Source of the DNA: a virus
Length of the DNA: 36,460 bases
IMG/VR virus record: IMGVR_UViG_3300047546_001245
Span: 1-36,460 of that record
Strand: one strand, 5' to 3'
In this document: positions 17,232-34,764 of the stretch, in pieces
Position numbering within the stretch: position 1 is the stretch's first letter
Layout: every line of letters starts with the position of its first letter
The notes under the pieces: model-generated
What the model was told of the DNA's origin: nothing
Databases searched by the model: none
Seen by the model: only the letters and a program-made list of their open reading frames with translations
Position numbers and translations under genes: made by a program

Positions 17232-17244
17232 TTGCTACCTTCGG

Positions 17245-17260: not shown

Positions 17261-17282
17261 AATTCAATTATCAACTCAGATC

Positions 17283-19627: not shown

Positions 19628-19654
19628 CGTCCTGAGCATGACGTTAAACTGCTC
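19628..19654 (+). ncRNA. H-type pseudoknot leader, copy 1
   Basis: Stem 1 is CGTC (19628-19631) with GACG (19640-19643). Stem 2 is GAGCA (19634-19638) with TGCTC (19650-19654). Loop 3 is TTAAAC. Loop lengths of 2, 1 and 6 are suitable for a classical H-type pseudoknot. It ends 29 bases before the ATG of the PcfJ-like gene. Confidence 0.75.
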
Positions 19655-19683
19655 AACACTACGAACTCAACTCTGAACTCACC

Positions 19684-21405
19684 ATGGAATTTCGTCTCCC
19701 AACTAACTTGCAAACTGAGCTGATCGCTTATGATCCACAGCTCAAGGCATTGGCACGTCAAAAGACTGACAAGAAACCAACCAAGAAATCCAAGTATCCG
19801 CTCGGCAATGTTCCCCATCTGATTCCTTACAACATCATCAGGGAATCATTGCAACAAGATGCAATCGATAACATCAATGCTAATCAAGCTCGTCATCGAT
19901 TCAGAAGGTTTACAAGGCCTGTGGACGTTGCAACTCCGCAGGCTCGACTCGTCACCAAAGCCATCATTTATCACTACGAACAATGTTGGTATGCTGCATG
20001 GCTTCCCGATAAAGACGATGACTACATTTATGGTTATGCCGTTGCATTCAAAGATACTGCTACCGTACGCAAGGTTCTTTCTCGTTCAATCCTCAACAAG
20101 ATTGATACTTACGAGGAAGTACCCGTCGGTCGTACCAAATTCTTTGTCAAGCGTCATCTTGTAACGAAAGCCGACATTCAAGCTGGTATGACCCAGCACC
20201 ATTGGCGTGCTGAACATGTTGCTGTTTATTACGACAAAGCTCGTGAATTGGCTCCAGCATTGGATGAGTTTCGCAAGGCATTGCAAGAAACGATTCCTGT
20301 CTGGGATGATCACCGTGAGTTATTCTCACGCATGCGCTGTAAAGAAATTTGGGAAGCACTGGAAATCTACAAAGACTTGATTCCAGAACATAAACAAGAT
20401 GGTTGGCAACTGACCGTTGACAATCTTCTGGAAGCTCTTGATCGCACAACGACTGTTTACGGTGCTGAATCTTATCGTGATTTTGAATATACATATGTAA
20501 CCAGGAACCTACATGTGTTCAATACTCCGTTCTTCCGTAAGTGGATGCAACAGGAGTTAGACACATGTACTAACAACTTCAATGATCCAGATAATCGTCA
20601 ACACAAGGATGTAGTCCGTGGTTTTAAACGTATATTGAAACTTGCTCAGTCCATCGAATACATCCGTTGTATATGGCCTGATTGTCCTATTGATTATTAC
20701 CAAACACATATTGAAGAATTGATGTCGATTCGTTTGAATCAACGTCCTCATTCAAATGTAAATGAATGGCTCAAGCAACACATGCCCGTTGCTTCATTCT
20801 TCAAAATCCTTGATAAATACTATGAACAAGAACTAAGTAAAGACAAGAAAAGATTTATTAACAGCGCCAGCGAAGACACAGGCTTGCCCGTGTTTTGGTT
20901 TTCAGATTGGAACGATACGATGTCCATGCTTGGACGTATCATCAACGCTGACAAAACAATTGATCCACCTAAGCGTTGGCGCCTTAATGAATTCCATGAT
21001 TATGTTCAGGCAGAATCTTGGAAGATCAGTAACCCCAATGAGACATTGCCCCAGGACTTGTTTCCTGAACCGATCAAGGTTCAACACAATAACAAGTCAT
21101 GGTCATTTTTCCAGCCACATGACACTCATCAGTTGGCAATGTGGGGCAGGGCTGTACGCAATTGCGTTGGCTCAGCATCTGGTTACGCCGAAGGTGTACG
21201 CAAGAAGCAACACTTCATTGTGTTGTGCATGCTTGATGGCCAACCACATTTCACAATTCAATTGCGTGTCAGCAACGGCATGATGTCCGTTGATCAGATT
21301 CGTGGCCTGTGTAATTCCACACTTACTGCAGAGAACAAAGATGAATACACAGAAGTCTTCCGGATTGCATTGCAAAACCGTGAAGCTGCGCTAAAGTCTG
21401 CCTAG
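19684..21405 (+). CDS. PcfJ-like domain protein
   Basis: This 573-residue protein carries a C-terminal region like PcfJ, a domain found in plasmid and phage proteins. Visible features are a His-containing turn and the conserved centre AMWGRAVRNCVGSASGYAEG (about residues 487-506), then strands (HFIVLCMLDGQPHFTIQLRV) and QIRGLCNSTL. The first 430 residues are mixed charged helices without a motif I can name. PcfJ was named in a conjugation locus; its biochemical role is unclear, and an RNA- or nucleic-acid-related role is only a guess. The gene is the longest between 14 and 27 kb and is preceded by the pseudoknot leader. Confidence 0.65.
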   Translation: MEFRLPTNLQTELIAYDPQLKALARQKTDKKPTKKSKYPLGNVPHLIPYNIIRESLQQDAIDNINANQARHRFRRFTRPVDVATPQARLVTKAIIYHYEQCWYAAWLPDKDDDYIYGYAVAFKDTATVRKVLSRSILNKIDTYEEVPVGRTKFFVKRHLVTKADIQAGMTQHHWRAEHVAVYYDKARELAPALDEFRKALQETIPVWDDHRELFSRMRCKEIWEALEIYKDLIPEHKQDGWQLTVDNLLEALDRTTTVYGAESYRDFEYTYVTRNLHVFNTPFFRKWMQQELDTCTNNFNDPDNRQHKDVVRGFKRILKLAQSIEYIRCIWPDCPIDYYQTHIEELMSIRLNQRPHSNVNEWLKQHMPVASFFKILDKYYEQELSKDKKRFINSASEDTGLPVFWFSDWNDTMSMLGRIINADKTIDPPKRWRLNEFHDYVQAESWKISNPNETLPQDLFPEPIKVQHNNKSWSFFQPHDTHQLAMWGRAVRNCVGSASGYAEGVRKKQHFIVLCMLDGQPHFTIQLRVSNGMMSVDQIRGLCNSTLTAENKDEYTEVFRIALQNREAALKSA

Positions 21406-21416
21406 CCCCCACGGCT

Positions 21417-21448
21417 TACCGGTCCTAGCCTCGATACTGGGGCCGGTA
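21417..21448 (+). ncRNA. 12-bp hairpin after the PcfJ-like gene
   Basis: TACCGGTCCTAG (21417-21428) pairs with CTGGGGCCGGTA (21437-21448), with two T-G pairs, around an eight-base loop. It starts 11 bases after the stop codon. No T-run follows, so it may protect or process the mRNA end instead of terminating transcription. Confidence 0.6.
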
Positions 21449-21475
21449 CAATTCTTACTTTAATCACATTTACTT

Positions 21476-21673
21476 ATGACTGATCTTACTTATGATTGTT
21501 TAATGTCCAAAGCAATTCAAAAGATGCTGTCTTATAAAGGATGTATTCCGTCTACAGATATGAATTCATTTCATTACTCACTTTATCTTAAAGTTGCTCC
21601 TCCTCATGAATTAGAAAAAGATATTATTAGCGAAATGACGATGCGTAAAATGATTAATGAAAGTGCTTTGTAA
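21476..21673 (+). CDS. small protein, unknown function
   Basis: This 65-residue protein (MTDLTYDCLMSKAIQKMLSY ...) is Ser/Met/Lys-containing, with a C-terminal helix (HELEKDIISEMTMRKMINES). The DNA is more AT-rich than its neighbours and uses several TTA codons, which the phage tRNA-Leu(UAA) would read. No family recognised. Confidence 0.6.
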   Translation: MTDLTYDCLMSKAIQKMLSYKGCIPSTDMNSFHYSLYLKVAPPHELEKDIISEMTMRKMINESAL

Positions 21674-21682
21674 CGTAACGTT

Positions 21683-21895
21683 GTGACGGACTACACAGAC
21701 GATCAACTCCTTGCCATGGCACTTGGCAACATCGGTGATTTTCTCCATGACAATTCACCGCATTACGTGTTGATTGAAAATGATCCTCGCAATGAGGATG
21801 ACTACGACACATGGAGTTACGGTACTGAGCCGTTACCCCATGATCACACTTGGCGTTCAATGTCAATTGATGTAAGTCCAAGTGAGCCCGAGTAG
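21683..21895 (+). CDS. small acidic protein ending inside a tRNA gene
   Basis: This 70-residue protein starts at GTG 21683. It is acidic (NDPRNEDDYDTWSYGTEPLP) and ends SPSEPE. The last codons and the stop TAG (21893-21895) lie in the first ten bases of the tRNA-Leu gene, so the 5' acceptor strand of the tRNA doubles as coding sequence. The arrangement repeats that of the three tRNA-like elements at 14.6-15.3 kb. Confidence 0.65.
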   Translation: MTDYTDDQLLAMALGNIGDFLHDNSPHYVLIENDPRNEDDYDTWSYGTEPLPHDHTWRSMSIDVSPSEPE

Positions 21896-21962
21896 CCCAG
21901 CGGTAGTAGGCAAACGACTTAAAATCGTTCCAGCGTGGGTTCGAATCCCACCTCGGGTACCA
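21886..21962 (+). tRNA. tRNA-Leu (anticodon UAA), short variable loop
   Basis: A full cloverleaf: acceptor GCCCGAG (21886-21892) with CTCGGGT (21952-21958, first pair G-T); D arm 21895-21911; anticodon arm AACGA/TCGTT with loop CTTAAAA (anticodon TAA at 21920-21922); five-base variable loop CCAGC; T arm GTGGG-TTCGAAT-CCCAC; discriminator A and encoded CCA (21960-21962). Anticodon UAA reads UUA leucine codons. Leucine tRNAs normally carry a long variable arm, which is absent here. Confidence 0.92.
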
Positions 21963-21983
21963 ATTCAATTACTCAACTCAATC

Positions 21984-22349
21984 ATGATTCAAATCTTTAG
22001 TGCATTCAAACATTTCGTCCCTGAGTTCCATGCATTCTCAGATGATGAGAAACGTTACAACATTGGTGCGACATGGACTGCTGCCGATGGCCTCCAGGAT
22101 TATCACAACTTGGAACTGCGGTACGTTCGTAACTCAGAACGTCTTGCGCTCCAAGGTGATCCACAGCCTGATGGCAGCTGGCGTTATGTCGAACCCAGTG
22201 GTCGTGTCCATACCATGACCGCAGATCGAGCCAAGCTATTCATGGAACAAACCCATGCCCATGCCACCATCATGTGTGGAATGCTTGATCGTCTAAAAGA
22301 TGCAGGACTTATGGAGCAAGTGGTTGACACCAGTGCTCAACCTGCGTAA
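21984..22349 (+). CDS. hypothetical soluble protein
   Basis: This is a 121-residue product from ATG 21984 after CTCAACTCAATC; a longer in-frame start would lie inside the tRNA. It has aromatic beta-like parts (YHNLELRYVRNSERLALQGD, about residues 40-59; GSWRYVEPSGRVHTM) and a helical end (ATIMCGMLDRLKDAGLMEQV). No named domain. A strong terminator follows. Confidence 0.7.
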   Translation: MIQIFSAFKHFVPEFHAFSDDEKRYNIGATWTAADGLQDYHNLELRYVRNSERLALQGDPQPDGSWRYVEPSGRVHTMTADRAKLFMEQTHAHATIMCGMLDRLKDAGLMEQVVDTSAQPA

Positions 22350-22373
22350 TCTGCATCTGACTTACTACATAAG

Positions 22374-22400
22374 CCCCTCGCAACAGCGGGGGGTTTTCTT
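22374..22400 (+). terminator. Rho-independent terminator
   Basis: CCCCTCGC (22374-22381) pairs with GCGGGGGG (22386-22393), one T-G pair, around AACA, and is followed by TTTTCTT. It separates the RNA-rich small-gene region from the cassette cluster. Confidence 0.88.
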
Positions 22401-22408
22401 CTCATCAC

Positions 22409-22738
22409 ATGGATTCATCAACTAAATCACAAGCAGTTGATCTCAACCTCGTTGATCAAATGTATGACTTAATTCCAGAATGGACATGGAATTTAGTTAA
22501 AGATCATCTTGTCAATTTATTGGTAGACATTATGCCTACAACAATACTTGAACGATTGACGGGTGATCCAACAGGTGATGAACGTGCACTGGAAATCCTT
22601 GATGATTACTACAAATCATCTGATATGAACAAAGAACTGCTCATTGATTCATTTAAAATCTTGGGCTCTGAACAAACAGCTTATGCATTAGATTCTCTTC
22701 AGCTCAACAAAATTTCCAACCCAAACTCCAATGACTGA
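22409..22738 (+). CDS. hypothetical helical protein
   Basis: This 109-residue acidic, helical protein has MYDLIPEWTWNLVKDHLVNL (residues 18-37) and RALEILDDYYKSSDMNKELL (about 59-78). It ends NPNSND. Its final codons AAT GAC TGA contain the ATG of the next gene, the same stop-start junction used throughout the following cluster. No family recognised. Confidence 0.7.
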   Translation: MDSSTKSQAVDLNLVDQMYDLIPEWTWNLVKDHLVNLLVDIMPTTILERLTGDPTGDERALEILDDYYKSSDMNKELLIDSFKILGSEQTAYALDSLQLNKISNPNSND

Positions 22739-23075
22739 TCATCTGATTACTATTCCAGAAGAACTAATTGACTTATGGGTGTCTCAATTCAATTCCCATA
22801 CTGATGAAGAAGTATTTACTAATATTGCCCAATGGGCTGCAGACCAGGAGTTGGAGGCGTGCTGCGAGTGGCTTGCTTCCTTGCCAAACAACTGGACATC
22901 GACTGCCCTTAAACGTGTTTCCGACCTCCGCGCCGTTCGCCGCCCCAAGCCGCCGAGCTTGAAGGAGCAGGCGTTAGCAGCATTGAAACGTCAAAGGACA
23001 AGATCAGTCCCGTCAATGGTTTCATTTGAAGATTGCGAAACCATCCGTCGCGCCCTGGAGCAACTCGATGACTGA
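22731..23075 (+). CDS. cassette family protein 1 (DQELEAC ... RRALEQLDD)
   Basis: This 114-residue protein belongs to a family with five members in this window. Shared blocks are WAADQELEACCEWL (residues 33-46), the linker RRPKPPSLKEQAL (about 68-80) and the end IRRALEQLDD. The family is one I have seen in cyanophages and picocyanobacteria without known function. The N-terminus is acidic and gene-specific. Start and stop overlap the neighbouring genes by 8 bp. Confidence 0.75.
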   Translation: MTDHLITIPEELIDLWVSQFNSHTDEEVFTNIAQWAADQELEACCEWLASLPNNWTSTALKRVSDLRAVRRPKPPSLKEQALAALKRQRTRSVPSMVSFEDCETIRRALEQLDD

Positions 23076-23319
23076 CTTTCGAGTGCTGTGCGCTGAGCTT
23101 GTTGACGAGCTTGAAGACTGGATTGCTTACGGCGATGAGGCCGACTGTGCCGATGCACATGCGGTTGTAGACCGCGCCCGAGCCGCCCTGTCCCAGCCCG
23201 AGCCGCATAACCTAAAAAAGCAGGCGCTAAGTGATCTCACTCACGCCTACAACGCAGACAAGATTGACGACACGACGTTTGAAAACCTCCGCCGCGCATT
23301 GGAGCAACTCGATGACTAA
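23068..23319 (+). CDS. cassette family protein 2
   Basis: This is an 83-residue product from ATG 23068 inside the previous gene's last codons. It lacks the DQELEAC block but keeps a shortened linker (NLKKQALSDL) and the ending LRRALEQLDD. The first half (CAELVDELEDWIAYGDEADC) is acidic and helical, and DRARAALSQPEP marks the middle. Base composition is richer in G and C than the flanking genes. It is probably a recombined or truncated family member. Confidence 0.7.
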   Translation: MTDFRVLCAELVDELEDWIAYGDEADCADAHAVVDRARAALSQPEPHNLKKQALSDLTHAYNADKIDDTTFENLRRALEQLDD

Positions 23320-23632
23320 CAATCAACAACATCCCATCACCCCACCGCCAAAGCTAATGAAGGAGTGGCTTGAAGAGTTGGATACGTCTGCTCCCCAAGA
23401 TGTGCTGCTGGCCGTTGTTCAATGGGGCGCCGACCAGGAGCTGGAGGCATGTGCTCAATGGGTGGATTGGCGTTGGTCGGGAATCAAAAGCAGGGAACTC
23501 CGCGCCGCCAGACGCCCCAAACCTCCGAGCTTGAAGGAGCAGGCGCTGGAGGAACTAGCTGAATGGGAGAACGTTATGGACATTGCACCCGATAGCCCCA
23601 TCCGCCGCGCCCTGGAGCAACTCGATGACTAA
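23312..23632 (+). CDS. cassette family protein 3
   Basis: A 106-residue product from ATG 23312 (MTNNQQHPITPPPKLMKEWL). It has the complete pattern: QWGADQELEACAQWV (about residues 39-53), RRPKPPSLKEQAL, and IRRALEQLDD at the end. The N-terminus closely matches that of the distant copy at 33327 (TNQQQHPIAPPPELVEKW), which shows that cassettes move within the genome or between related phages. Confidence 0.75.
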   Translation: MTNNQQHPITPPPKLMKEWLEELDTSAPQDVLLAVVQWGADQELEACAQWVDWRWSGIKSRELRAARRPKPPSLKEQALEELAEWENVMDIAPDSPIRRALEQLDD

Positions 23633-24017
23633 ACAAATTAACGGTGACAAGTTGTTTGTTATTGATCATCATCCTGCTATTCCACCTTCTGATTTATTAA
23701 AGAAGTGGGAAGATGCCTGGTTTGATGAAGAAGAACATGCTGATGTTCTATTGATCCAGGCATTTCAAGCAGGAGCTGACCAGGAGTTAGAGGCGTGTAT
23801 TGATTGGCTTGCCAATGCACGCAACCATTCTCTTGATTGGGACGAAGCTACTTACTTCTCTGCCAACCTCCGCACTGCTCGCCGTCCTAAGTTGCAGAGC
23901 TTAAAAGAACGAGCGTTGGAACTAGCAAAACCACCAGGAACAGAAGGTGCTTATGTCACGTTTGGTCCTGAAGAACTTGCACTTATTCGCCGTGCACTAG
24001 AGCAACTTAATGACTGA
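23625..24017 (+). CDS. cassette family protein 4
   Basis: This 130-residue product starts at ATG 23625. It carries AGADQELEACIDWLANAR (about residues 47-64), RRPKLQSLKERAL and the end IRRALEQLND. Codon use is more AT-rich than in the preceding two members, so it has probably been in the genome longer. Its stop overlaps the next ATG by 8 bp. Confidence 0.75.
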   Translation: MTKQINGDKLFVIDHHPAIPPSDLLKKWEDAWFDEEEHADVLLIQAFQAGADQELEACIDWLANARNHSLDWDEATYFSANLRTARRPKLQSLKERALELAKPPGTEGAYVTFGPEELALIRRALEQLND

Positions 24018-24423
24018 ACCAACAATGGACAACAAAATTATTTTTCAACAAGACTCTCCCAATGGAATGGAAGAAGTACTACGTCTTGACAAAAAAGGTT
24101 TTCATTACAAAGATCAGTTCATTGCTGATGCTGGTGAAGCTTACCGCTTAATGGTGGAATTCCTTAAACCAGCTAGTCAGCCAAAGGAAAGTTTAATGAT
24201 GAAACTTTCTCCTACTACTCAAAAAGTTTGGAATGCATTTAAAACCAATGGAATATGCGCAGAAGAAAAACTTGCTGTTGCTTTGGAAACTATTACCAAA
24301 CAATTAGAAAGTCACATCGACTTACCAAATGTTGATGGCAGTAAGTATGCAGGAATATGGCATTGTATTGATTACCTTTCAGACATCGCTAACGAACTAA
24401 AAGATAACGATGAAATGCCGTAA
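24010..24423 (+). CDS. hypothetical phage protein
   Basis: This 137-residue protein has a short beta hairpin (GMEEVLRLDKKGFHYKDQFI, residues 19-38) and a helical C-terminal part with a single Trp/Cys/His motif (GIWHCIDYLSDIANELKDND). The N-terminal element resembles short phage proteins with a 'LrldkdGf.ykg..v.D..eay..f..fl' pattern, whose function is not known. It overlaps both neighbours and is part of the coupled run. Confidence 0.65.
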   Translation: MTEPTMDNKIIFQQDSPNGMEEVLRLDKKGFHYKDQFIADAGEAYRLMVEFLKPASQPKESLMMKLSPTTQKVWNAFKTNGICAEEKLAVALETITKQLESHIDLPNVDGSKYAGIWHCIDYLSDIANELKDNDEMP

Positions 24424-24757
24424 GTGCAATTCAAAAAACACTCGTGTCATTGTCACTGAACATCAAGGAAATGAAACTTGGCGTTACTGCCGGTGTCTCG
24501 ATTGCAACACCAAGTACAAAACAATTGAAACTTACGCCGTCAAAAAACGTGGTTCAATACCAGGAAAACCACAACATGTCAATTGCATTAAACGTGGAGA
24601 AGAAGTTGGTTCATCTGTGTTAACAGAAATGAATGTCAAACAGATCAGGCAATTGGCATTAGACAACGTCAAGTACGATGTCATTGCCCATAAATTTGGC
24701 ATTCACAAATCAACTGTCTATCGCATTATCAAACGTAAACTTTGGAGTCATGTCTAG
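24410..24757 (+). CDS. zinc-ribbon plus helix-turn-helix regulator (NrdR-type ribbon)
   Basis: The 115-residue protein starts with a zinc ribbon: C3 and C6, then C29 and C32 within RYCRCLDCNTKYKTIETY. This is the NrdR pattern ('RR...C..C..rf.T.E'). The ATP-cone domain of NrdR is absent. Instead the C-terminus (VKQIRQLALDNVKYDVIAHK, then GIHKSTVYRIIKRK) is a helix-turn-helix. It is therefore a phage DNA-binding regulator. Its position two genes from thyX suggests control of nucleotide genes, which is inference. Confidence 0.7.
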   Translation: MKCRKCNSKNTRVIVTEHQGNETWRYCRCLDCNTKYKTIETYAVKKRGSIPGKPQHVNCIKRGEEVGSSVLTEMNVKQIRQLALDNVKYDVIAHKFGIHKSTVYRIIKRKLWSHV

Positions 24758-25052
24758 AAAAGCAAAGCCTCCTGCATTCAAGATCGGTGATCGTGTTGCA
24801 GAAAAACCAAAGCCTCGTGCAATGTTAACAAACAGTGCAGAAACCAAAGAACGTATTAGTGCTTATCGATCCCAGAGATATGGCACAGTCCTTGATACGG
24901 TCTATAAGCAAAACGCAAGAGGATCCAAAGTCCCATATGTAAAAGTTATATGGGATGGTGGACAATCACCATCGCTTCATTCACAGAATAGACTTTGCCC
25001 TGAAAAAGATTTGTCTTTAGAAATGCAAAGTTATTTCAATGGGAATGATTAA
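24750..25052 (+). CDS. hypothetical basic protein
   Basis: This 100-residue product starts at ATG 24750 inside the end of the regulator gene. It is basic, with FKIGDRVAEKPKPRAM (residues 9-24) followed by a beta pattern YGTVLDTVYKQNARGSKVPY and VKVIWDGG. This is the look of a small SH3- or KOW-like barrel ('GdrV...G.v......v.V.WD.g'). The fold is inferred from pattern only. It is followed at once by thyX. Confidence 0.6.
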   Translation: MSRKAKPPAFKIGDRVAEKPKPRAMLTNSAETKERISAYRSQRYGTVLDTVYKQNARGSKVPYVKVIWDGGQSPSLHSQNRLCPEKDLSLEMQSYFNGND

Positions 25053-25055
25053 GAC

Positions 25056-25709
25056 ATGGCAGTGAATTTAATTTGGGTAACACCCAACGCAGAAGAGATG
25101 ATTGTCAAGATGGCTCGGGTTTCCGCTCCGAAAAATCAAGACAATATGGATACAGCTCCACGGTTACTGCAGTATCTCGTTAAGCACAAGCATTGGTCCC
25201 CATTTGAAATGGGCAACATGTGCGTTGAGATCAATACAACGCGTGCAATCTCGCCTCAGATATTGCGCCATCGTTCGTTTTGCTTCCAGGAATTTAGTCA
25301 GAGGTACGCAGACATCACTGATGTAGGCAGTATCACCATGCCGCACCTGCGTAGCCAAGACTACAAGAACAGACAGAATTCCAATGACGATCTAAAGGAA
25401 CGTCTTGGTGGTGACAAGCTTGCTGCCTATTACAGGCGCATGGCTAACATCCTGGAAGATTCCAAACATCTGTACCAAGAGATGATCAGTGAAGGTGTCG
25501 CAAAAGAGTCAGCGCGTTTTGTATTGCCTCTTGCAACACCTACTCGTCTTTATATGAATGGTACAATCAGGTCTTACATACACTATTTACAACTTCGTTG
25601 TGACTCAGGAACCCAACTCGAACACCGAGAAATTGCAGAAGAAATCAAAGGAATCTTCTGTAAACAATTCCCTGTCATCGGACAGGCTGTGTTCTCAGCA
25701 GATCAATGA
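25056..25709 (+). CDS. thyX: flavin-dependent thymidylate synthase
   Basis: This 217-residue protein converts dUMP to dTMP using methylene-tetrahydrofolate and FAD with NADPH. The diagnostic RHR-x7-S motif is present (RHRSFCFQEFS, residues 71-81). HKHWSPFE (residues 44-51) and the C-terminal block LRCDSGTQLEHREIA, with the substrate-binding Arg and Gln, are also visible. The length is typical for the family. Phage ThyX supplies thymidine for genome synthesis and is common in cyanophages. It starts four bases after the previous gene. Confidence 0.96.
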   Translation: MAVNLIWVTPNAEEMIVKMARVSAPKNQDNMDTAPRLLQYLVKHKHWSPFEMGNMCVEINTTRAISPQILRHRSFCFQEFSQRYADITDVGSITMPHLRSQDYKNRQNSNDDLKERLGGDKLAAYYRRMANILEDSKHLYQEMISEGVAKESARFVLPLATPTRLYMNGTIRSYIHYLQLRCDSGTQLEHREIAEEIKGIFCKQFPVIGQAVFSADQ

Positions 25710-25950
25710 CATTATTGAAAAGTACAGTGAACCAGAACAAGCTCGCCGGTTTTTAATCAATGCTGGCATCATTGATGAAAACGGAGACTTGATGCCGCAG
25801 TATCAGAATCTTCCGGAAGAATCAAAAGATTCAAATGAAGACGATGCTCCGTGGCTTGATTGTATGGATGCCTTTCAGCAATTGGAAGACAACGAACAAT
25901 CAGAAACGGATCGTTGGCAATCAGAAGGAAGAGGTCGGTTGTTTTTCTAA
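25702..25950 (+). CDS. small acidic protein, start uncertain
   Basis: The protein-like part is INDIIEKYSEPEQARRFLIN followed by AGIIDENGDLMPQYQ and an acidic end with GRGRLFF. Proteins with 'ARRFLi.AGIID..G.LmpQYq' are familiar from cyanophages without known function. No ATG fits: the first in-frame ATG is at 25558, deep in thyX. CTG 25687, ATC 25702 and ATT 25711 are the candidates next to the thyX stop, so a non-standard start or coupling is needed. I chose 25702. Confidence 0.55.
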   Translation: MNDIIEKYSEPEQARRFLINAGIIDENGDLMPQYQNLPEESKDSNEDDAPWLDCMDAFQQLEDNEQSETDRWQSEGRGRLFF

Positions 25951-25962
25951 TTCCTTTTTAGC

Positions 25963-25999
25963 GTGCGTCGATTCAATCAATTGACGCACTTTCTTTTTG
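25963..25999 (+). terminator. Rho-independent terminator
   Basis: GTGCGTC (25963-25969) pairs with GACGCAC (25983-25989). The stem can extend inward by four more pairs. A T-rich tail TTTCTTTTT follows. It closes the thyX unit. Confidence 0.75.
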
Positions 26000-26117
26000 C
26001 GTTGATCCACAAGATAAATAATCAGTGCTTTGTTCATTGACTTTACTTTCAATAACAAAATGCTAATTCACTGTGTGGATCCAAGTCGTTCAGCTGGTAA
26101 CATAACGGCAATCTCCC
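26000..26117. other. intergenic stretch without a clear gene
   Basis: This is AT-rich DNA between the terminator and the second pseudoknot. A TTGACT-like -35 occurs near 26037 but has no convincing -10 at the right distance. The segment GTTCAGCTGGTAACATAACG resembles a tRNA D arm, but no other tRNA part follows. A promoter for the GP88-like gene probably lies here because a terminator precedes it. Confidence 0.4.
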
Positions 26118-26143
26118 TGTCCTAAGCACGACATTAAACTGCC
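26118..26143 (+). ncRNA. H-type pseudoknot leader, copy 2
   Basis: Stem 1 is TGTC (26118-26121) with GACA (26130-26133), a compensated change from CGTC/GACG. Stem 2 is short here: GCA (26126-26128) with TGC (26140-26142). Loop 3 TTAAAC is unchanged. It lies 62 bases before the GP88-like start. Confidence 0.6.
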
Positions 26144-26204
26144 AATCACATATAAGTTTTACTTATGTGCTGGTGTCAATTCAACTCAACTCAACTGCAC
26201 TCCA

Positions 26205-26972
26205 ATGAAACTACTTAAGTTCTCCACTGGTAATGCCAAGCTGGGCAAGCGTCTAATCTTTAACTTGCCCGCTGGCTACTCTTGTCCTAACGCTGGTGTA
26301 TGCAAGACATTTGCAGATCGCACCACAGGAGCAATCACTGACTTGCCGCAGCTCAACGGTACAGATGCTGCGGAATTCCGTTGCTTTGCTGCAATGGCAG
26401 AGACCAGGCCAACAGTACGAGATGCACGTTGGCACAACTGGGATTTGCTGCGGGAAGTAATGTATGAAACCACTGATCAACTCGATGCACTCACTTCAAT
26501 TCTTGAACGATCACTTGCAGTTCAACCAGAGCTAGAGCTGTGTCGCATCCATGAGTCAGGCGACTTCTGGACTGAGATGTACATGAAGGCATGGGCTAAT
26601 GTTGCACGAAACAATCGCAACAGAAAGTTCTATGCCTACACCAAGTCTTTGGGAATGTGGTTGTCTTTGCACCAAGACTTGCCTGACAACCTGTACCTCA
26701 CAGCGTCATGGGGTGGTACGCTCGATTACCTGATTCCAAAACACACAGAGATCTTCCGTCGCATTGCTTACGTTGTGTATTCGGAAGAGCAAGCAGAACA
26801 CATGAAGCTGCCAATCGATCACGATGACAGCCACTGCTTAGGTGACAAGCCGTTCGCACTTCTGGTACATGGCTCCCAGAGGGCTGGCTCTGCCGCAAGC
26901 AAAGCCATATCTCAACGTAAGTCTCAAGGTAAATTTGTTGGTTACGGCAAATCAAACCAAATAAAAGATTAA
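26205..26972 (+). CDS. GP88-like phage protein
   Basis: This 255-residue protein matches my memory of the phage 'gene product 88' family. It begins KFSTGNAKLGKRLIFNLPAG (residues 5-24) and has paired cysteines in SCPNAGVCKTFADR (C27, C33) and FRCFAAMAE (C60). The block RIHESGDFWTEMYMKAWANV (about 118-137) precedes FYAYTKSLGMW. Conserved Cys and Asp/His residues suggest metal binding, but I know no proven function. Length fits a complete member. The leader holds a pseudoknot copy and the start follows CAACTGCACTCCA. Confidence 0.65.
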   Translation: MKLLKFSTGNAKLGKRLIFNLPAGYSCPNAGVCKTFADRTTGAITDLPQLNGTDAAEFRCFAAMAETRPTVRDARWHNWDLLREVMYETTDQLDALTSILERSLAVQPELELCRIHESGDFWTEMYMKAWANVARNNRNRKFYAYTKSLGMWLSLHQDLPDNLYLTASWGGTLDYLIPKHTEIFRRIAYVVYSEEQAEHMKLPIDHDDSHCLGDKPFALLVHGSQRAGSAASKAISQRKSQGKFVGYGKSNQIKD

Positions 26973-27022
26973 AGCACTTGCTATTAATAGAAAAGTAAGT
27001 ACCATCTGTAGGTCCTTTTACC

Positions 27023-27066
27023 TCCCCCTGACCCCCACTCGGGACCACCAGGGGGATACTTCTTTC
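27023..27066 (+). terminator. probable terminator hairpin
   Basis: TCCCCCTG (27023-27030) pairs perfectly with CAGGGGGA (27049-27056) around an 18-base loop that contains CCC/GGG. A pyrimidine-rich tail (TACTTCTTTC) follows. The tail is not a clean T-run, so termination efficiency is uncertain. Confidence 0.55.
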
Positions 27067-27083
27067 TTATAGGACTTTCTTTT

Positions 27084-29121: not shown

Positions 29122-29135
29122 ACATTCCTACTTCT

Positions 29136-29363
29136 ATGTCTGAACTTTCCCCCGCTACCATCGCCATAGTCGCAGCATTCCGCGAGCGTTACGCAGAGTG
29201 TTGGCGCCCTGGACCTTCACCCGACTACTGGCAGGAAGCATGCCTAGCTGCTGCCCTTACATCCTTGGCGGTCCGCATCAAGAACGCTCCTGAGATTCGC
29301 CAAGACGTGCTCGACATCGTGAACGAGCTGGAAGAGTTACCGCTTTACGAACTTGGAGAATAG
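29136..29363 (+). CDS. small helical protein
   Basis: This 75-residue protein (MSELSPATIAIVAAFRERYA) is helical with Trp/Pro turns (CWRPGPSPDYWQEACLAAAL) and an acidic end. It starts 14 bases after the polymerase stop and so is probably part of the replication unit. Higher G and C content than the next gene suggests separate acquisition. No family recognised. Confidence 0.65.
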   Translation: MSELSPATIAIVAAFRERYAECWRPGPSPDYWQEACLAAALTSLAVRIKNAPEIRQDVLDIVNELEELPLYELGE

Positions 29364-29387
29364 TAGTCACCTTCACTAATAAACACC

Positions 29388-29633
29388 ATGACAACTAAAC
29401 GCAAGCCAACTCTTAAACAATTGTTTACTGCCTGGAAAAAATATGAAAAGAAATCTGAAAAAATACGGCAAGAAAAATGGAGGCTTGAATCAATAGCAAA
29501 AGAAATTGGTTATAGCACTGAATTAATAAATGATGGTGAATATATTTATCGAATTACAATTACAAATTACTGCGGTTCTCCGTACAAAGTTGAACGTATT
29601 GCTAAGGCAGATGAATTAAACAATATTAAGTAA
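29388..29633 (+). CDS. small Lys-rich protein
   Basis: This 81-residue basic protein has a helix (FTAWKKYEKKSEKIRQEKWR, residues 13-32) and a beta-like C-terminal part (EYIYRITITNYCGSPYKVER). Strongly AT-rich codons with several TTA and ATA. It precedes the third pseudoknot. Unknown function; DNA contact is possible from charge. Confidence 0.65.
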   Translation: MTTKRKPTLKQLFTAWKKYEKKSEKIRQEKWRLESIAKEIGYSTELINDGEYIYRITITNYCGSPYKVERIAKADELNNIK

Positions 29634-29640
29634 TTGTTTT

Positions 29641-29667
29641 TGTCCTAGGCATGACATTAAACTGTCT
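29641..29667 (+). ncRNA. H-type pseudoknot leader, copy 3
   Basis: Stem 1 is TGTC (29641-29644) with GACA (29653-29656). Stem 2 is AGGCA (29647-29651) with TGTCT (29663-29667), five pairs including one G-T. Loop 3 is TTAAAC. The ATG of the SSB-like gene lies 20 bases downstream. Confidence 0.75.
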
Positions 29668-29687
29668 TTCACTACACTTCTGTACCC

Positions 29688-30491
29688 ATGAACTTTGTAA
29701 GTGTTTGCGCTCAAACCACCGAGACACCTCGGGAGGTTTACACCAGCGCTACTTCAACTGCAATGCGTTGTGCCCTATTGTTGCCGCCTGTTGGTAACAA
29801 AGCACCAACGCCTATTGAAATCAACATCTATGGCAAAAGTGCAGAGCGTTTCGCTCGGATCTCCAAGAACTCGCAAATCTTTATTCATGGCTCAAAGTTA
29901 CGTTTCGACCTTGACTCCAGAACGTATTCGCTCCATGGAGGAATTGTCGCAACGGTTGATGAAACGTTCCCTCTCTTTAACACAGTCATCCTCGGTGGTC
30001 GTTGCGTTAAAGACATCCACCGCGATGACGAACGTGCTTTTAAAACGACAGCCGATGGCTTGATGATCTGTAACCAAACGCTTTCAGTAAGCACTGGTAA
30101 AAACCAAGCAGATCTTTTTAACTTCTATGCCATCAACACAAATCAAGACAAATTAAACAACGCCGAACTGTTGGTGAACTTCACCCGCAAGGGTGTGGGA
30201 CTCACCATTAACGGTCGATTGATTACCGATGAATGGACTGATTCTCAAACTAAAGAGCGTAAGCACGCCACCAAGATTCAATTGGTAAGTATGACGCTGG
30301 CTCCCAAGGCATCGTTGCCTGGTAAAGAAGAGCGTCCCATTCAACCTCAAACAACAGTCAACGGCGAAAACAAAGTTGCATCGCTGTGGGGCGGTAAAAC
30401 TATTGATGACAACCCTTGGAATGACGGCGGCCTGCCCGATCTCCCTGGTCATTACGGCACCGCACCTGATCTTGAAAACGCACCTTTTTAA
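29688..30491 (+). CDS. ssb: tandem OB-fold single-stranded DNA-binding protein
   Basis: The 267-residue protein appears to contain two SSB-type OB folds. Domain 1 is residues 1-100. Domain 2 (about 101-205) has the classical order VILGGRCVKDI, ...CNQTLSVSTG, NNAELLVNFTRKG, LTINGRLITDEWTDSQTKER and IQLVSMTLAPKA. A flexible tail ends TAPDLENAPF, like the acidic ...PF tip by which SSBs recruit replication proteins. It would protect single-stranded DNA during synthesis by the nearby polymerase. The leader carries a pseudoknot; T4 gp32 provides a precedent of an SSB regulating its mRNA through a pseudoknot, but that parallel is inference. Confidence 0.8.
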   Translation: MNFVSVCAQTTETPREVYTSATSTAMRCALLLPPVGNKAPTPIEINIYGKSAERFARISKNSQIFIHGSKLRFDLDSRTYSLHGGIVATVDETFPLFNTVILGGRCVKDIHRDDERAFKTTADGLMICNQTLSVSTGKNQADLFNFYAINTNQDKLNNAELLVNFTRKGVGLTINGRLITDEWTDSQTKERKHATKIQLVSMTLAPKASLPGKEERPIQPQTTVNGENKVASLWGGKTIDDNPWNDGGLPDLPGHYGTAPDLENAPF

Positions 30492-30493
30492 TT

Positions 30494-30724
30494 ATGAATT
30501 CCAAGCTGGTATTTACTTATCAAGATGAAGATTCAAAGATTACTTATGAATCTTTAGGTGTGACTACGGATGAAGTAATGAATCAATTTGTTTGTTTTTT
30601 GCTTTCGATGGGTTATGCCAGAGAAAGTATTCATTCTGCAATGCAAGAAATTGTGGAAGAGCATGAAGATTACTTACAGAACAAGCCAGATTACAAACTG
30701 GAACTTGCTCTTGAATTAACCTGA
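30494..30724 (+). CDS. small acidic protein
   Basis: This 76-residue acidic helical protein (TYESLGVTTDEVMNQFVCFL, residues 17-36) ends in DYKLELALELT. It begins two bases after the SSB stop, so translation is coupled. No family recognised; a partner of the SSB-like protein is possible only by position. Confidence 0.65.
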   Translation: MNSKLVFTYQDEDSKITYESLGVTTDEVMNQFVCFLLSMGYARESIHSAMQEIVEEHEDYLQNKPDYKLELALELT

Positions 30725-30729
30725 GTGTT

Positions 30730-30756
30730 CGTCCTGGGATGACGTTAAAAGCATCC
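30730..30756 (+). ncRNA. H-type pseudoknot leader, copy 4
   Basis: Stem 1 is CGTC (30730-30733) with GACG (30741-30744). Stem 2 is GGAT (30737-30740) with ATCC (30753-30756), a completely different sequence from copy 1 that still pairs. Loop 3 begins TTAAA. It starts five bases after a stop codon and ends 22 bases before the next ATG. Confidence 0.7.
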
Positions 30757-30778
30757 GCCGTTCCATTACGAACTAACC

Positions 30779-31879
30779 ATGACAGCCACTCCGACTGACA
30801 TGATGAGTGACACTTGGATGGATGAAATCCAGGCTGAAACTCAATCCAAAACTTCAACGAAAACTATTACGACCATGACTGTGAAGAAAACTTCTGCCCT
30901 TGCTACCCGTGGTCTGGATTCCTTTAAACTTTTTCAAGACAAAAGGTTTGTCTCTGGATACCAGAATCTCGTCACAATTCAACCTCTTAACAAATCCAAG
31001 ACACGAGGTTGGTTCGTGCGGAAGTCAGACCTTGATGCTTGTGGATGGAACGCTACTGAAAGTGACTTTGCTAAAGGTTCAGTTATCTGGGACTACAAGC
31101 AAACTTTTGGTATGGCTCCCAATACTTCAGTGGAAGAAGGACTCAATTTCGTTGAGCCTCGCATTCAAATCCTTTTACGTTCTCCCCTCATGGTTGAGGA
31201 AACCACAGGGATGAGGCAAACGATTGGCACGTTTGATAACCCTGAAGTTAAGTCTTTGTTTGAAGCTGACAAGATTGCATCAGATCTTGCCAATAGCAAA
31301 GGCGAAATGTACAAGCGTAAGTACAGCGTGCGCACCAAATATCTGGTGTACGTGTTGACCCAGGAAAACAAGCGTGCTCATAAAATCCCAATGGTTCTTA
31401 CCTTGAAGGGATTGAATGGCACTGACATTTCTGAAAAAGTACGTATGTATGAAAAAGAAATGTCCAAGTGCTTGAGCAAAGCTTTGGATTCGGAAGTGCC
31501 TCTTGCTTTCAATGAAAAGTTCTACGCCACTACCGTTTTTGCTCCGGTACTTGCCAATGAAATGCGTGGAGCCAACAACGTTGAGATCTGCGCAATTGAA
31601 TCTTTTGACATTCCTGATTACAGCACCCAAGAAGAAGCGGTCGAATCACTGAATCGCATGTCGATTCCTGATGAAGATCGTGAATCAACCTGGAAGTACC
31701 AGGAAATGTTTAACGATTACATCAACGTTCATGCCAAGCAGGATGCTGAAAAGCTGAATGGTGCTTATGGCATTAAAGAAGGTGTTGAAATTCTGCCTGT
31801 GTCTCGCACCACAGATCCTGTGGATGTAAAAGCTCTTCCTGCTCGGGATCCTTTGACTGGAGAAGACGACTCACTTTGA
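30779..31879 (+). CDS. DUF5895-like protein
   Basis: This 366-residue protein resembles DUF5895, a family I associate with cyanobacteria and their phages. Supporting segments are KTRGWFVRKSDLDACGWNAT (about residues 74-93), NFVEPRIQILLRSPLMVEET, and KYSVRTKYLVYVLTQENKRA. The C-terminal third is acidic (NRMSIPDEDRESTWKYQEMF). There are no enzyme motifs. Its position after the SSB and its own pseudoknot leader suggest a role in replication, by association only. Its end overlaps the oppositely directed gene by 9 bp. Confidence 0.6.
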   Translation: MTATPTDMMSDTWMDEIQAETQSKTSTKTITTMTVKKTSALATRGLDSFKLFQDKRFVSGYQNLVTIQPLNKSKTRGWFVRKSDLDACGWNATESDFAKGSVIWDYKQTFGMAPNTSVEEGLNFVEPRIQILLRSPLMVEETTGMRQTIGTFDNPEVKSLFEADKIASDLANSKGEMYKRKYSVRTKYLVYVLTQENKRAHKIPMVLTLKGLNGTDISEKVRMYEKEMSKCLSKALDSEVPLAFNEKFYATTVFAPVLANEMRGANNVEICAIESFDIPDYSTQEEAVESLNRMSIPDEDRESTWKYQEMFNDYINVHAKQDAEKLNGAYGIKEGVEILPVSRTTDPVDVKALPARDPLTGEDDSL

Positions 31880-32128
31880 CGGAATGTCTGGGTTAGTCAG
31901 GTCATCTTGTTCAACTGCAACATTGTTAAAGATGAACATGTCTTGAACTAACCCACGAATCACACCTTGACGTTGAGTGGCGATCCTTGCTAAGAGGGTC
32001 GCCATTTCTTTCAACACACTTACCGAGTTACATTCTTCTATTGACCTTTTAATCTTTTCTTCCCAAAACTTATCCTCCATTGAAGGTTCGATTTGGAATT
32101 GATTAAGTGGAACGTACTTGATTTCCAT
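31871..32128 (-). CDS. small helical protein on the opposite strand
   Basis: This is an 85-residue protein, the only minus-strand gene right of 14 kb. It is mainly helical: MEDKFWEEKIKRSIEECNSV (about residues 17-36), then VLKEMATLLARIATQRQGVI and a polar end. I recall similar 'LLaRIATQRQgvIrGLv' proteins in cyanophages, without function. It is convergent with the DUF5895-like gene and overlaps its stop. Confidence 0.7.
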   Translation of the reverse strand: MEIKYVPLNQFQIEPSMEDKFWEEKIKRSIEECNSVSVLKEMATLLARIATQRQGVIRGLVQDMFIFNNVAVEQDDLTNPDIPSK

Positions 32129-32147
32129 GGGTACACCACTGGATAAT
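32118..32147 (+). promoter_or_regulatory. candidate promoter
   Basis: TTGATT (32118-32123) and GATAAT (32142-32147) are separated by 18 bp. It lies upstream of the plus-strand gene at 32206, after a change of coding direction where a new promoter is needed. Confidence 0.4.
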
Positions 32148-32205
32148 TAATTCTACTTCTATATAGAAAACTAATTTACAACTTTATGTTGTATTAAGGA
32201 TCACC

Positions 32206-32346
32206 ATGGAACCACTTACAAAAACAATGATCTTTGTCTTGGTTGGAGTCCCAGTAATTTTATTGGGATATGGTTTTAAACGCCTGTCCAATGCCAGAGC
32301 TTCTGCTAAGCTGGCACCATCAGAGGAAGATGAACTCTTCATTTGA
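32206..32346 (+). CDS. short membrane peptide
   Basis: This 46-residue protein has one hydrophobic segment (MIFVLVGVPVILLGYGF, residues 8-24) and a basic then acidic tail ending EEDELFI. The ATG has a clear AAGGA upstream, in contrast to most plus-strand genes. The positive residues (KRLSNAR) after the segment predict the C-terminus inside the cell. Function unknown. Confidence 0.65.
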   Translation: MEPLTKTMIFVLVGVPVILLGYGFKRLSNARASAKLAPSEEDELFI

Positions 32347-32376
32347 TTTCAAGTCAACTTCAATTCAAAACAAATC

Positions 32377-33330
32377 ATGTCAACGCAAACGCAGGCGTCG
32401 CTCAACACGGCGCAACAATCGATTTACTCACGTTCAAACATCCGGCGTGCGTTCCAGGACTTTGATGATACGGATGTCGCCGCAATTAATTTGCGAGATG
32501 ATTCTTGCATTGTGGTGTATCGCGATGGTTGTGAGCGTGTGTTCCCAAAGCAATTAATCAAAGATGCCTTTGTTGCTTACACGCATCGCCTTAAAGATTT
32601 CTTTTCTTACTTAGGACCTAACTACCGTGGCCCATCCATTTGGCACAACAACTCTTACGTCTTATTCAAAGGCTGGTGTTATCAACATGCTCTCGGGCAC
32701 TTGTCCTCCAATGCTCATCTGCAAGCGGCGTGGGCAGACAAGTTCATTCACCTCAATGAAGCTGAAAAACTTAAAGCTTTATTGCAATCGGATCAAACTG
32801 ATCTTGGTTATCTCGTTGCTCCAGATGGCTTTAGATATGTGCACTCGCCTGAGCTGGGTTCTTCTTTTGATGATGAGGAGAATGATACGGCTGATGTACA
32901 CAAAACTCCGGAGCCTACGCCGTATTGTTCCTGTGGTTCATTCCAAAGACAACTGAATAATCTTGCTGATTTCCAGCAGGAAATCGCTGGTTACAAACCC
33001 TGGTGTATTCATTTGACTTGGTTCAAGAAGTACAGGGATTTGTTATCAGAAAGAGCTCGTGTCCGTTCGGAATCTCGTGGTCAAGCACCTGAGAAATGTG
33101 TGGCATGGTGGTACGCACCGCCTTCTGATCACACAGGGGATGGACGTTTTGTGTTGCTGCATACCAAGTCAGGGGCTCAAGCTCCGTTGACTCATTGGAA
33201 ACTCTACAAACCAAGTGAGGTATTTACCAAAGACAATGCATGGGATCTATTTTTTAATATGATGGCTGCAGACTATGTCCCATTTCCTGGGACTGCACTA
33301 CCACAACTTTCATCTTTTGCTAAGAAATGA
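32377..33330 (+). CDS. SWIM-type zinc-finger protein
   Basis: This 317-residue protein contains the SWIM pattern CxC...CxH: C184 and C186 (PYCSCGSFQRQ), then C210 and H212 (KPWCIHLTWF). The N-terminal region has a helix followed by strands (IRRAFQDFDDTDVAAINLRD). The C-terminal part is Trp/Pro rich (CVAWWYAPPSDHTGDGRFVL). SWIM domains bind zinc and mediate DNA or protein contacts. No transposase catalytic core is attached. The last codons overlap the ATG of the next cassette gene (AAATGA). Confidence 0.65.
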   Translation: MSTQTQASLNTAQQSIYSRSNIRRAFQDFDDTDVAAINLRDDSCIVVYRDGCERVFPKQLIKDAFVAYTHRLKDFFSYLGPNYRGPSIWHNNSYVLFKGWCYQHALGHLSSNAHLQAAWADKFIHLNEAEKLKALLQSDQTDLGYLVAPDGFRYVHSPELGSSFDDEENDTADVHKTPEPTPYCSCGSFQRQLNNLADFQQEIAGYKPWCIHLTWFKKYRDLLSERARVRSESRGQAPEKCVAWWYAPPSDHTGDGRFVLLHTKSGAQAPLTHWKLYKPSEVFTKDNAWDLFFNMMAADYVPFPGTALPQLSSFAKK

Positions 33331-33728
33331 CTAATCAACAACAACACCCCATTGCCCCACCGCCGGAGCTGGTTGAAAAGTGGGCAAATGATTCGGTTCC
33401 CATGAGGGCCAATGCAACAGCCCGAGACTGGGAGATTGTTTTTGCCACCCGAGCCGCTCAATGGGGCGCCGACCAGGAGCTGGAGGCGTGCTGTAAGTGG
33501 CTACGCGAAGCCAAAAATCATGGTCTTGGTTATGAGTACGGGCAGGAGCTTGCCGACAGGTATCGCGCCGCCCGCCGCCCATCTCCTAAGCCACCAAGCG
33601 CTGTTGCGCAAGCAAAAGCATTGATTGAGCGCCACGAGGATGGTTGGTGCCCAAGCGACGCTGAATGGCACGTTATCCAAGAGGGACTGGCCGAAGGACT
33701 CTGTGCACTGGAGCAACTCGATGACTAA
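33327..33728 (+). CDS. cassette family protein 5, distant copy
   Basis: This 133-residue member of the DQELEAC family lies 10 kb from the main cluster. It starts TNQQQHPIAPPPELVEKW, has QWGADQELEACCKWLREA (about residues 45-62), a shortened linker (RRPSPKPPSAVAQAKAL) and the end LCALEQLDD. It is richer in G and C than its neighbours. The same ATGACTAA junction joins it to the following gene. Function unknown. Confidence 0.75.
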   Translation: MTNQQQHPIAPPPELVEKWANDSVPMRANATARDWEIVFATRAAQWGADQELEACCKWLREAKNHGLGYEYGQELADRYRAARRPSPKPPSAVAQAKALIERHEDGWCPSDAEWHVIQEGLAEGLCALEQLDD

Positions 33729-33924
33729 CTCTTTTCTTTCATCAGAATCTTATTGGATGGGTCCAGGTGTTATCTGTCCTAAACATGGAACACATCCACA
33801 TACTATTGTAAGTACCATTAAAGGTCATGAAGGACATTGGTGTATGATTTGCGCCCTTGAAGCGCTTGGAAATCCATTACCAACAATCACACAAGAAGAG
33901 TATTTAAAACAAAACAATGACTGA
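33721..33924 (+). CDS. small zinc-binding-like protein
   Basis: This is a 67-residue product from ATG 33721 inside the last codons of the cassette gene. Cys/His spacing is suggestive of a metal site: GVICPKHGTHPHTIVS (residues 13-28) and HWCMICALEALG. With a CxxH pair and a CxxC pair it could hold one zinc ion. It ends QNND with the next ATG overlapping by 8 bp. No family recognised. Confidence 0.65.
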   Translation: MTNSFLSSESYWMGPGVICPKHGTHPHTIVSTIKGHEGHWCMICALEALGNPLPTITQEEYLKQNND

Positions 33925-34168
33925 CCTTTGGCCATCGCCGCCAAGCTGGAGAGTGCCAATGACTTATGACATCCTTGAATACGCCCGTCAACTTGCAACC
34001 CAACCACGCATGGCCAACAACACACGTTATGAACTTGAGCTTCCAGAAGATATCCATTGGGAGCTTGTAAAACTAGCTGCAGACCTTAGGATGCATCATG
34101 AAGATTACGCACAAAACATTCTAATTGGTCATGTTGAACAACAACTGGATCGAAAAGCTAACGATTGA
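33917..34168 (+). CDS. small protein, possible ribbon-helix-helix
   Basis: This 83-residue protein starts at ATG 33917 within the previous gene's last codons. The C-terminal half, NTRYELELPEDIHWELVKLA then a second helix (HHEDYAQNILIGHVEQQLDR), has the strand-helix-helix order of ribbon-helix-helix repressors. The first part is Pro-rich. The fold is a guess from pattern only. Confidence 0.6.
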   Translation: MTDLWPSPPSWRVPMTYDILEYARQLATQPRMANNTRYELELPEDIHWELVKLAADLRMHHEDYAQNILIGHVEQQLDRKAND

Positions 34169-34193
34169 ATGTATTGATGAAGAAGGTGGTGGC

Positions 34194-34334
34194 ATGACCA
34201 TTCAAATCGAATGGGATGAAACCGATCCTGATCTTCAATACTGGAATGACCTTGGCACAAAAGGTCAAGAACGTTTTATTATTGATGCGTTGACTCAAGC
34301 CCTTGAACCTTACCGCAATTCTGATGGCATTTGA
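34194..34334 (+). CDS. short acidic protein
   Basis: A 46-residue product from ATG 34194, which has AAGGTGG upstream. Earlier in-frame starts lack such a site. It is acidic with WDETDPDLQYWNDLGTKGQE and a helical end. The 3' end overlaps the next start by 11 bp. Unknown function. Confidence 0.5.
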   Translation: MTIQIEWDETDPDLQYWNDLGTKGQERFIIDALTQALEPYRNSDGI

Positions 34335-34707
34335 AACCTACGGTCTTGAAAAAGATCAGTACAGGAAAATCTTCCTGGAAAAAACTGAGTTCATGGTGGA
34401 TTTATTTCTTGCTATGAAACTAAAAGCCGAAGCAAAAGGCTTGAATCTGGATCATTACGACAACAAATTTGTTTGGAATTTGTTCCAGGAAATTGGCTAC
34501 GGAACAGAAGAAGCTGCTCGCGTTCATCAAAAAAAGAATGATCCAGATGCTTTACTGGAACGCAGCTATGACCCAGTCGGCATGCCCTCCAGGGTAGAGC
34601 TGGCAGAATCTCTTGCTTCTGTCAATGCCAAGGTTGAGTCGCTAACTGATTATGTAGCAACGTTGGTGCAGGCGTTGCAAAATGGATTGACAAAGCTGGT
34701 AGACTAA
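34324..34707 (+). CDS. hypothetical helical protein
   Basis: This is a 127-residue product from ATG 34324 (MAFETYGLEKDQYRKIFLEK). It is mainly helical, with LFLAMKLKAEAKGLNLDHYD and a C-terminal coiled coil (ESLASVNAKVESLTDYVATL) that suggests oligomerisation. It starts inside the preceding frame. No family recognised. A pseudoknot element starts six bases after the stop. Confidence 0.65.
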   Translation: MAFETYGLEKDQYRKIFLEKTEFMVDLFLAMKLKAEAKGLNLDHYDNKFVWNLFQEIGYGTEEAARVHQKKNDPDALLERSYDPVGMPSRVELAESLASVNAKVESLTDYVATLVQALQNGLTKLVD

Positions 34708-34712
34708 TTGCC

Positions 34713-34739
34713 CGTCCTGGGTAAGACGTTAAACTGCCC
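34713..34739 (+). ncRNA. H-type pseudoknot leader, copy 5
   Basis: Stem 1 is CGTC (34713-34716) with GACG (34725-34728). Stem 2 is GGGTA (34719-34723) with TGCCC (34735-34739), compensated relative to copy 1 (GAGCA/TGCTC). Loop 3 is TTAAAC. The next ATG lies 25 bases downstream. Confidence 0.75.
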
Positions 34740-34764
34740 CACACTTTACATTTCATTTCAAATC

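Follow-up and report, generated by a model that had tools for sequence, protein, structure and literature searches.

The described RNA element closest to the repeats considered here is coremin, an Xrn1-resistant RNA (exoribonuclease-resistant RNA, xrRNA; class xrRNA-C) carried by beet necrotic yellow vein virus (BNYVV), cucumoviruses, hypoviruses and other RNA viruses of plants and fungi, which is built of a 4-bp hairpin with a YGAD or YGNNAD loop, a UUAAACUA spacer with an essential C and U, and any small second hairpin (PMC10520033, PMC5869530). Xrn1 halts one base before this element and scanning eukaryotic ribosomes are stalled as well, and in Xrn1 assays pentaloops are dead and some 7- and 8-nt loops are active (PMC10520033, PMC5869530). 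A flaviviral xrRNA, whose pseudoknotted fold is proposed to obstruct 5'->3' exonucleases mechanically, brings bacterial RNase J1 to a halt in vitro (PMC5760640). Here we analysed the entire IMG/VR virus record IMGVR_UViG_3300047546_001245 (36,460 bases, hereafter the window), in which five short repeats fold as H-type pseudoknots around a core that matches coremin. We propose, with a probability of about one half, that each of these repeats is a coremin-like RNA that would halt the 5'->3' exonuclease of the host, in most cases RNase J, and would protect the segment of mRNA lying downstream of it.

The repeats are 26-27 nt long and are all on the + strand, at the places where a preliminary description of the window had predicted H-type pseudoknots. 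Their consensus is NNNN-CU-RRRYA-H-N'N'N'N'-UUAAAM-UGYYY, and in the DNA they read as four bases for the left side of stem 1, CGTC or TGTC, then CT, a run rich in purines with A as its last base, one or no loop bases, GACG or GACA, TTAAAC and the right strand of stem 2. Copy 1 (19628..19654) forms stem 1 between 19628-19631 and 19640-19643 (CGUC/GACG) and, past loop 1 (CU), stem 2 between 19634-19638 and 19650-19654 (GAGCA/UGCUC), with UUAAAC as the spacer. Copy 2 (26118..26144) combines UGUC/GACA with a stem 2 that had already been called weak and that forms three of its five pairs, copy 3 (29641..29667) combines UGUC/GACA with AGGCA/UGUCU, and copy 5 (34713..34739) combines CGUC/GACG with GGGUA/UGCCC. 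Stem 1 has 4 bp throughout, and stem 2 has five pairs in copies 1, 3 and 5. Copy 4 (30730..30756; CGUC/GACG) is a variant whose purine-rich strand ends in AT, with a 7-nt loop, a UUAAAA spacer and a stem 2 of four pairs (GGAU/AUCC), and this variant recurs in one of the other loci, L179.

In the copies collected from sequence databases both stems covary strongly. Scans of IMG/VR in which stem 2 was left unconstrained gave 131 nonredundant copies, in which 4.47 of 5 pairs formed in the predicted register compared with 1.6-2.4 at other registers; the stem-2 pairs totalled 585, as against 491.8 ± 5.5 when the partners were permuted (2,000 permutations, maximum 512). With stem 1 left free, copies departing from YGUC/GACR that kept at least four stem-2 pairs showed all four stem-1 pairs in 25 of 30 cases, whereas those with a poor stem 2 looked random. 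All four stem-1 pairs were likewise present in 392 of the 404 YGTC/GACR copies, and nine distinct compensated helices were found (GGAC/GTCC, AGTC/GACT, GGTC/GACC, TGAC/GTCA, CGAC/GTCG, AGAC/GTCT, TCAC/GTGA, TCTC/GAGA and GCTC/GAGT). In a formal count over a 37-sequence alignment of the nine-pair structure, pseudoknot included and with some rows chosen for pairing, 95.5% of the cells were paired (75.9% after shuffling) and 67 cells had changed on both sides (18.2 after shuffling, 0-15 for slid partners). Nine-base loops come with a matching 6-bp stem 2. Among 16 multi-copy viral records the pattern with stem 1 free gave 60 matches, on a single strand within each record, against none for the reversed control, and over all fetched loci the real spacer yielded 473 fully paired copies, compared with none for nine control spacers and one for a tenth. 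The repeats are thus far from chance, and they are H-type pseudoknots acting as RNA with both stems covarying, as had been proposed from the five copies of the window.

A promoter or repressor site at the DNA level could equally be short and conserved and contain the palindrome of stem 1, and BPROM called a promoter over the copy of a Staphylococcus phage. The orientation of the motif, however, follows that of the genes, and a site in duplex DNA would not be expected to contain interleaved inverted repeats with such covariation; because such a site leaves the covariation of stem 2 unexplained, we rejected this explanation as scarcely credible. Comparison with Rfam gave nothing over the curated threshold in the window except a tRNA-Leu, no match around copy 5 at E values up to 10, and, in a set of other loci, nothing besides tRNAs and a single Lacto-phage-1 RNA some 400 nt away from the motif. 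No Rfam family matches the motif, which agrees with the earlier remark that no named riboswitch has this consensus.

Each copy lies shortly before a gene, the pseudoknot ending 29, 60, 20, 22 and 25 nt before the ATG in copies 1 to 5, and domain matches bore out the gene identities first suggested. These are, in order and all on the + strand, a PcfJ-like gene (19684..21405; PF14284), a GP88-like gene (26205..26972; PF17338), the gene of a single-strand DNA-binding protein (SSB; 29688..30491; phrog_44, PF00436), a DUF5895 gene (30779..31879; PF19247) and the gene of a 40-aa membrane peptide (34765..34887; S-EIV1 homologue AHV82166). In Synechococcus phage S-EIV1 each of the five orthologous genes has the motif at the corresponding place (38810, 33603, 30514, 29170 and 25920), although the proteins are only 46-80% identical to those of the window, and two more copies are present (43013 and 39529). 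Its counterpart of copy 1 has TGTC/GACA with GAGTA/TGCTC, that of copy 2 a 6-bp stem 2 (CAAGCA/TGCTTG), that of copy 3 CGTC/GACG with AAGCA/TGCTT, so that both stems are altered on both sides relative to the window, and that of copy 5 the stem 1 AGTC/GACT.

The presence of one copy before SSB in both genomes recalls the T4 gene 32 leader, an H-type pseudoknot 5' of a phage SSB gene that is a single site in one transcript. It would suit the shared translational operator of the preliminary description, in the form of a phage protein, for example SSB, that attaches to every copy and thereby represses translation, as gp32 does on its own leader, and the conserved loop bases would serve well as a recognition site. 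The motif, however, is not restricted to an SSB transcript: in the window no fewer than five different genes have it upstream, as do further genes elsewhere, and its loop bases are strictly conserved across many phage lineages. Phages that are not related to one another, and chromosomes as well, have this fold with the same loop bases, in front of various genes and near tRNAs, and no phage protein shared by the carriers is known as a candidate ligand. We regard a protein-bound operator as improbable.

Beyond the window the motif occurs in records of IMG/VR, INPHARED and GTDB, so that it is not private to this phage, a point overlooked in the preliminary description. Related viral records hold up to seven copies per genome, all on the same strand and oriented as the genes are. 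Named carriers include phages of Staphylococcus, Streptococcus and Lactobacillus (where it separates head genes from scaffold/capsid genes) and phages of Moorella, Mycobacterium, Arthrobacter, Corynebacterium, Paracoccus, Nostoc and Microcystis; the carriers are hence phages of Bacillota, Actinomycetota, cyanobacteria and others, and the genes downstream are unrelated. Across 84,980 species genomes of bacteria and archaea, scanning identified 116 stretches, most of them in Bacillota and the next largest share in Omnitrophota. In E. coli, the form with an 8-nt loop (octaloop), which is that of most window copies, was absent from 28 Gb, and a form with a 6-nt loop (hexaloop) appeared only as a degenerate near-match.

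This distribution bears on the interpretation first given to the repeats, of which the H-type RNA pseudoknot with covarying stems and without a named family is supported. A phage-specific regulon with a shared translational operator is not supported, as the motif precedes unrelated genes in many phage groups, adjoins tRNAs and is spaced to the upstream stop codon, and neither is a small ligand-binding element. The latter would be a riboswitch comparable to preQ1-I, which is a small H-type pseudoknot with an A-rich loop, similar to the motif in size and topology, and the strictly conserved loop bases of the motif would suit such a role. The consensus of preQ1-I is nevertheless a different one, Rfam contains no match even at the permissive E values used, the downstream genes share no pathway, as many as seven copies occur in one genome, and the close match is to an RNA known for blocking an exonuclease. 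We consider a riboswitch very unlikely.

It is from the stop codon before it, and not from the start codon after it, that the motif keeps a sharply defined distance. Among 337 nonredundant copies the commonest distance from stop to motif was exactly 5 nt (68 copies), with 11 copies at 4 nt or less and 21 at 6 nt. In the window, copies 3, 4 and 5 begin 7, 5 and 5 nt past the stop codons of the open reading frames (ORFs) at 29388-29633, 30494-30724 and 34303-34707, a relation overlooked in the preliminary description. About half of the octaloop copies have no long-ORF stop within 20 nt; among copies without a near stop, 29 of 159 have a terminator-like hairpin directly upstream, compared with 2 in a control window. 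Some hexaloops start 0-1 nt past the 3' end of a tRNA (L553, L554, L578, L628 and L657), and some copies sit 3-15 nt before tRNAs. The common rule is that the motif begins right after an upstream functional unit, be it a stop codon, a tRNA or a terminator-like hairpin, and the hexaloops at tRNA ends suggest a protection of the RNA left by tRNA excision.

Two explanations based on the ribosome draw on this spacing. The one that we rank second overall, while considering it rather unlikely, is that the pseudoknot insulates the downstream gene: ribosomes that have just finished translation 5 nt before it would be kept from sliding or reinitiating, and this gene would be translated independently. 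The sharp 5-nt gap, start codons 20-60 nt downstream in the window and the stalling of scanning eukaryotic ribosomes by coremin are all consistent with such a role. Copies beside tRNAs and terminator-like hairpins, however, have no terminating ribosome nearby, the octaloop copies lacking a near stop pose the same difficulty, and the spacing is equally expected if the fold must merely avoid being melted. The second explanation is that the motif stimulates stop-codon readthrough or frameshifting in the upstream gene, given that the distance from stop to pseudoknot is like that of recoding pseudoknots. We rejected it as highly implausible, because the readthrough frame of copies 3 and 4 meets a stop codon inside the pseudoknot, within six codons (TAA TTG TTT TTG TCC TAG and TGA GTG TTC GTC CTG GGA TGA). 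Only copy 5, among the three copies with a near stop, leaves it open, and copies placed after tRNAs make no sense under this explanation.

When the literature was compared by sequence string, the only paper, among those searched in this way, that matched the motif core in an RNA element concerned the coremin Xrn1-resistant RNA. All five window copies have its 4-bp stem 1, YGUC/GACR; the loop opens with C and ends in a penultimate A followed by A, C or U; and the spacer UUAAACU comes right after stem 1 in copies 1, 2, 3 and 5 (UUAAAAG in copy 4). Both elements are compact and located between genes and after ORFs, although coremin belongs to eukaryotic RNA viruses and the motif to DNA phages and bacterial chromosomes. 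Phages and prophages also carry the canonical coremin hexaloop, YGNNAD, in abundance: when the loop was unconstrained, 41 of the 67 nonredundant hexaloops conformed to it, against 2.3% by chance, and as judged from sequence the phage hexaloop class fits the coremin consensus. Loop lengths in phages were distributed as 8 nt in 51 cases, 9 nt in 20, 6 nt in 17, 7 nt in 6, 4 nt in 3, 5 nt in 2 and 3 nt in 1; 6- and 8-nt loops are common and 5-nt loops are at background, in keeping with the experimental rule, and the length that fails in the Xrn1 assay is thus avoided. In the Creative Commons-licensed PMC literature we found no report of coremin in phages or bacteria, subscription journals and preprints lying outside this scope, so that a prior report elsewhere is possible.

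In the exonuclease-blocking explanation that we favour, the compact pseudoknot closely follows an upstream unit of a polycistronic phage mRNA and shortly precedes the next gene. An endonuclease would cut upstream of it, or the monophosphate end produced by tRNA excision may also offer an entry point. From there a 5'->3' exonuclease, which in most hosts would be RNase J, would degrade the RNA until the pseudoknot brings it to a halt. The message beyond would be spared and would now begin with the pseudoknot, and expression of the downstream gene may benefit. The preferred gap of 5 nt to the stop codon may let the fold just clear the footprint of a ribosome that is terminating there. Flaviviral xrRNA, despite a larger ring-like fold and no sequence similarity to the phage motif, halts RNase J1 in vitro, which indicates that an exonuclease block needs no Xrn1-specific contact.

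Several observations weigh against this explanation. The window loops, CU-RRRY-A-H (8 nt) or the 7-nt variant, have U instead of G at position 2 and fit neither YGAD nor YGNNAD, and the separate second hairpin of coremin is missing, the bases after the spacer pairing with the loop, so that stem 2 would have to replace it. Since coremin stalls scanning ribosomes too, the resemblance equally backs a ribosome-based role. Of 50 carrier genomes, 32 had RNase J over the curated cut-off, among them those named genomes of Bacillota and cyanobacteria that were searched, and none of the 10 Omnitrophota genomes with chromosomal copies did; the betaproteobacterial phage Melnitz (Methylophilales) has a clean copy 5 nt past a stop codon, and a crAss-like phage carries a 3-bp version of the motif; with these three exceptions, RNase J as an all-or-none predictor of hosts is too simple. 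Two further exceptions are doubtful. In the Vibrio match the motif faces genes of the opposite strand and such matches are expected by chance in 2.3 Gb, and the host label of 'Stenotrophomonas' phage BUCT702 (L658, OM735687.1) looks questionable because its scaffold protein, other records labelled Stenotrophomonas aside, has its named relatives in phages of Bacillota, mostly those of Streptococcus, Lactococcus, Brevibacillus and Enterococcus. A comparison of hexaloops between host classes gave 1 match in 399 genomes of one class and 0 in 369 of another, which is uninformative. As two features of coremin are present in the window copies (stem 1 and spacer) and two are lacking (loop consensus and separate hairpin), we do not file them as members of coremin; they are a pseudoknotted coremin-like variant that probably works as coremin does.

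Taking DNA phages as a whole, we tentatively suggest, at slightly less than an even chance, that those of many bacterial phyla carry exoribonuclease-resistant RNAs with the coremin core, which would stop RNase J and split polycistronic mRNAs into separately protected segments, as a prokaryotic counterpart of the xrRNAs of eukaryotic viruses. If the block is confirmed, eukaryotic RNA viruses and the DNA phages of bacteria would both defeat 5'->3' decay with RNA structures of almost identical core sequence, which would pose sharply the question of convergence or transfer. Such a block would also explain how compact phage genomes give the genes of one operon differing mRNA levels, as ahead of scaffold and capsid genes, and would provide genetically portable stabilisers of 27 nt for expression in Gram-positive bacteria and cyanobacteria. 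Whether phages act against RNase J, a nuclease that bacteria also employ for defence, thereby becomes a testable question. Should the exonuclease idea prove wrong, a widespread and strongly covarying pseudoknot absent from Rfam still constitutes a new family of structured RNA.

Among the chromosomal copies, those of Omnitrophota and Deltaproteobacteria overlap the 3' end of a conserved small ORF (for example MDITIKYMLRPVAHCKEGCSxLSWARR*) whose stop codon falls inside the pseudoknot, and which is often 5' of an Rrf2-type regulator or a desulfoferrodoxin-like gene (genome contigs L418, L427, L439, L441, L444, L448, L475, L478, L482, L488, L496, L500, L502, L503, L517, L527 and L529). Two contigs of metagenome-assembled genomes, L471 and L446, labelled Gammaproteobacteria and 'bacterium LLD_282', resemble viral contigs of the group of the window and are probable binning errors; in L471 an ORF resembling the C-terminus of the PolA of the window is followed after 5 nt by the pseudoknot and then by a likely SSB-region gene.

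Within the window, a degenerate sixth copy (CCT...GACGTTAAACTGCTCAA, about 17238..17262, + strand), overlooked in the preliminary description, is without a matching left strand of stem 1. The leaders between pseudoknot and ATG at 19655-19683, 29668-29687 and 34740-34764 are poor in G and rich in CAACTC/CACTAC-like repeats and show no obvious Shine-Dalgarno sequence, and the same is seen in related phage contigs. A phage tRNA-Leu (TAA) lies at 21886-21962, between the PcfJ-like gene and a cluster of small ORFs. Finally, a family of small paralogous proteins (ADQELEAC ... ARRPK/SPKPPS) has four members, at 22731-23075, 23231-23632, 23583-24017 and 33327-33728, the last of them corresponding to phrog_32006.

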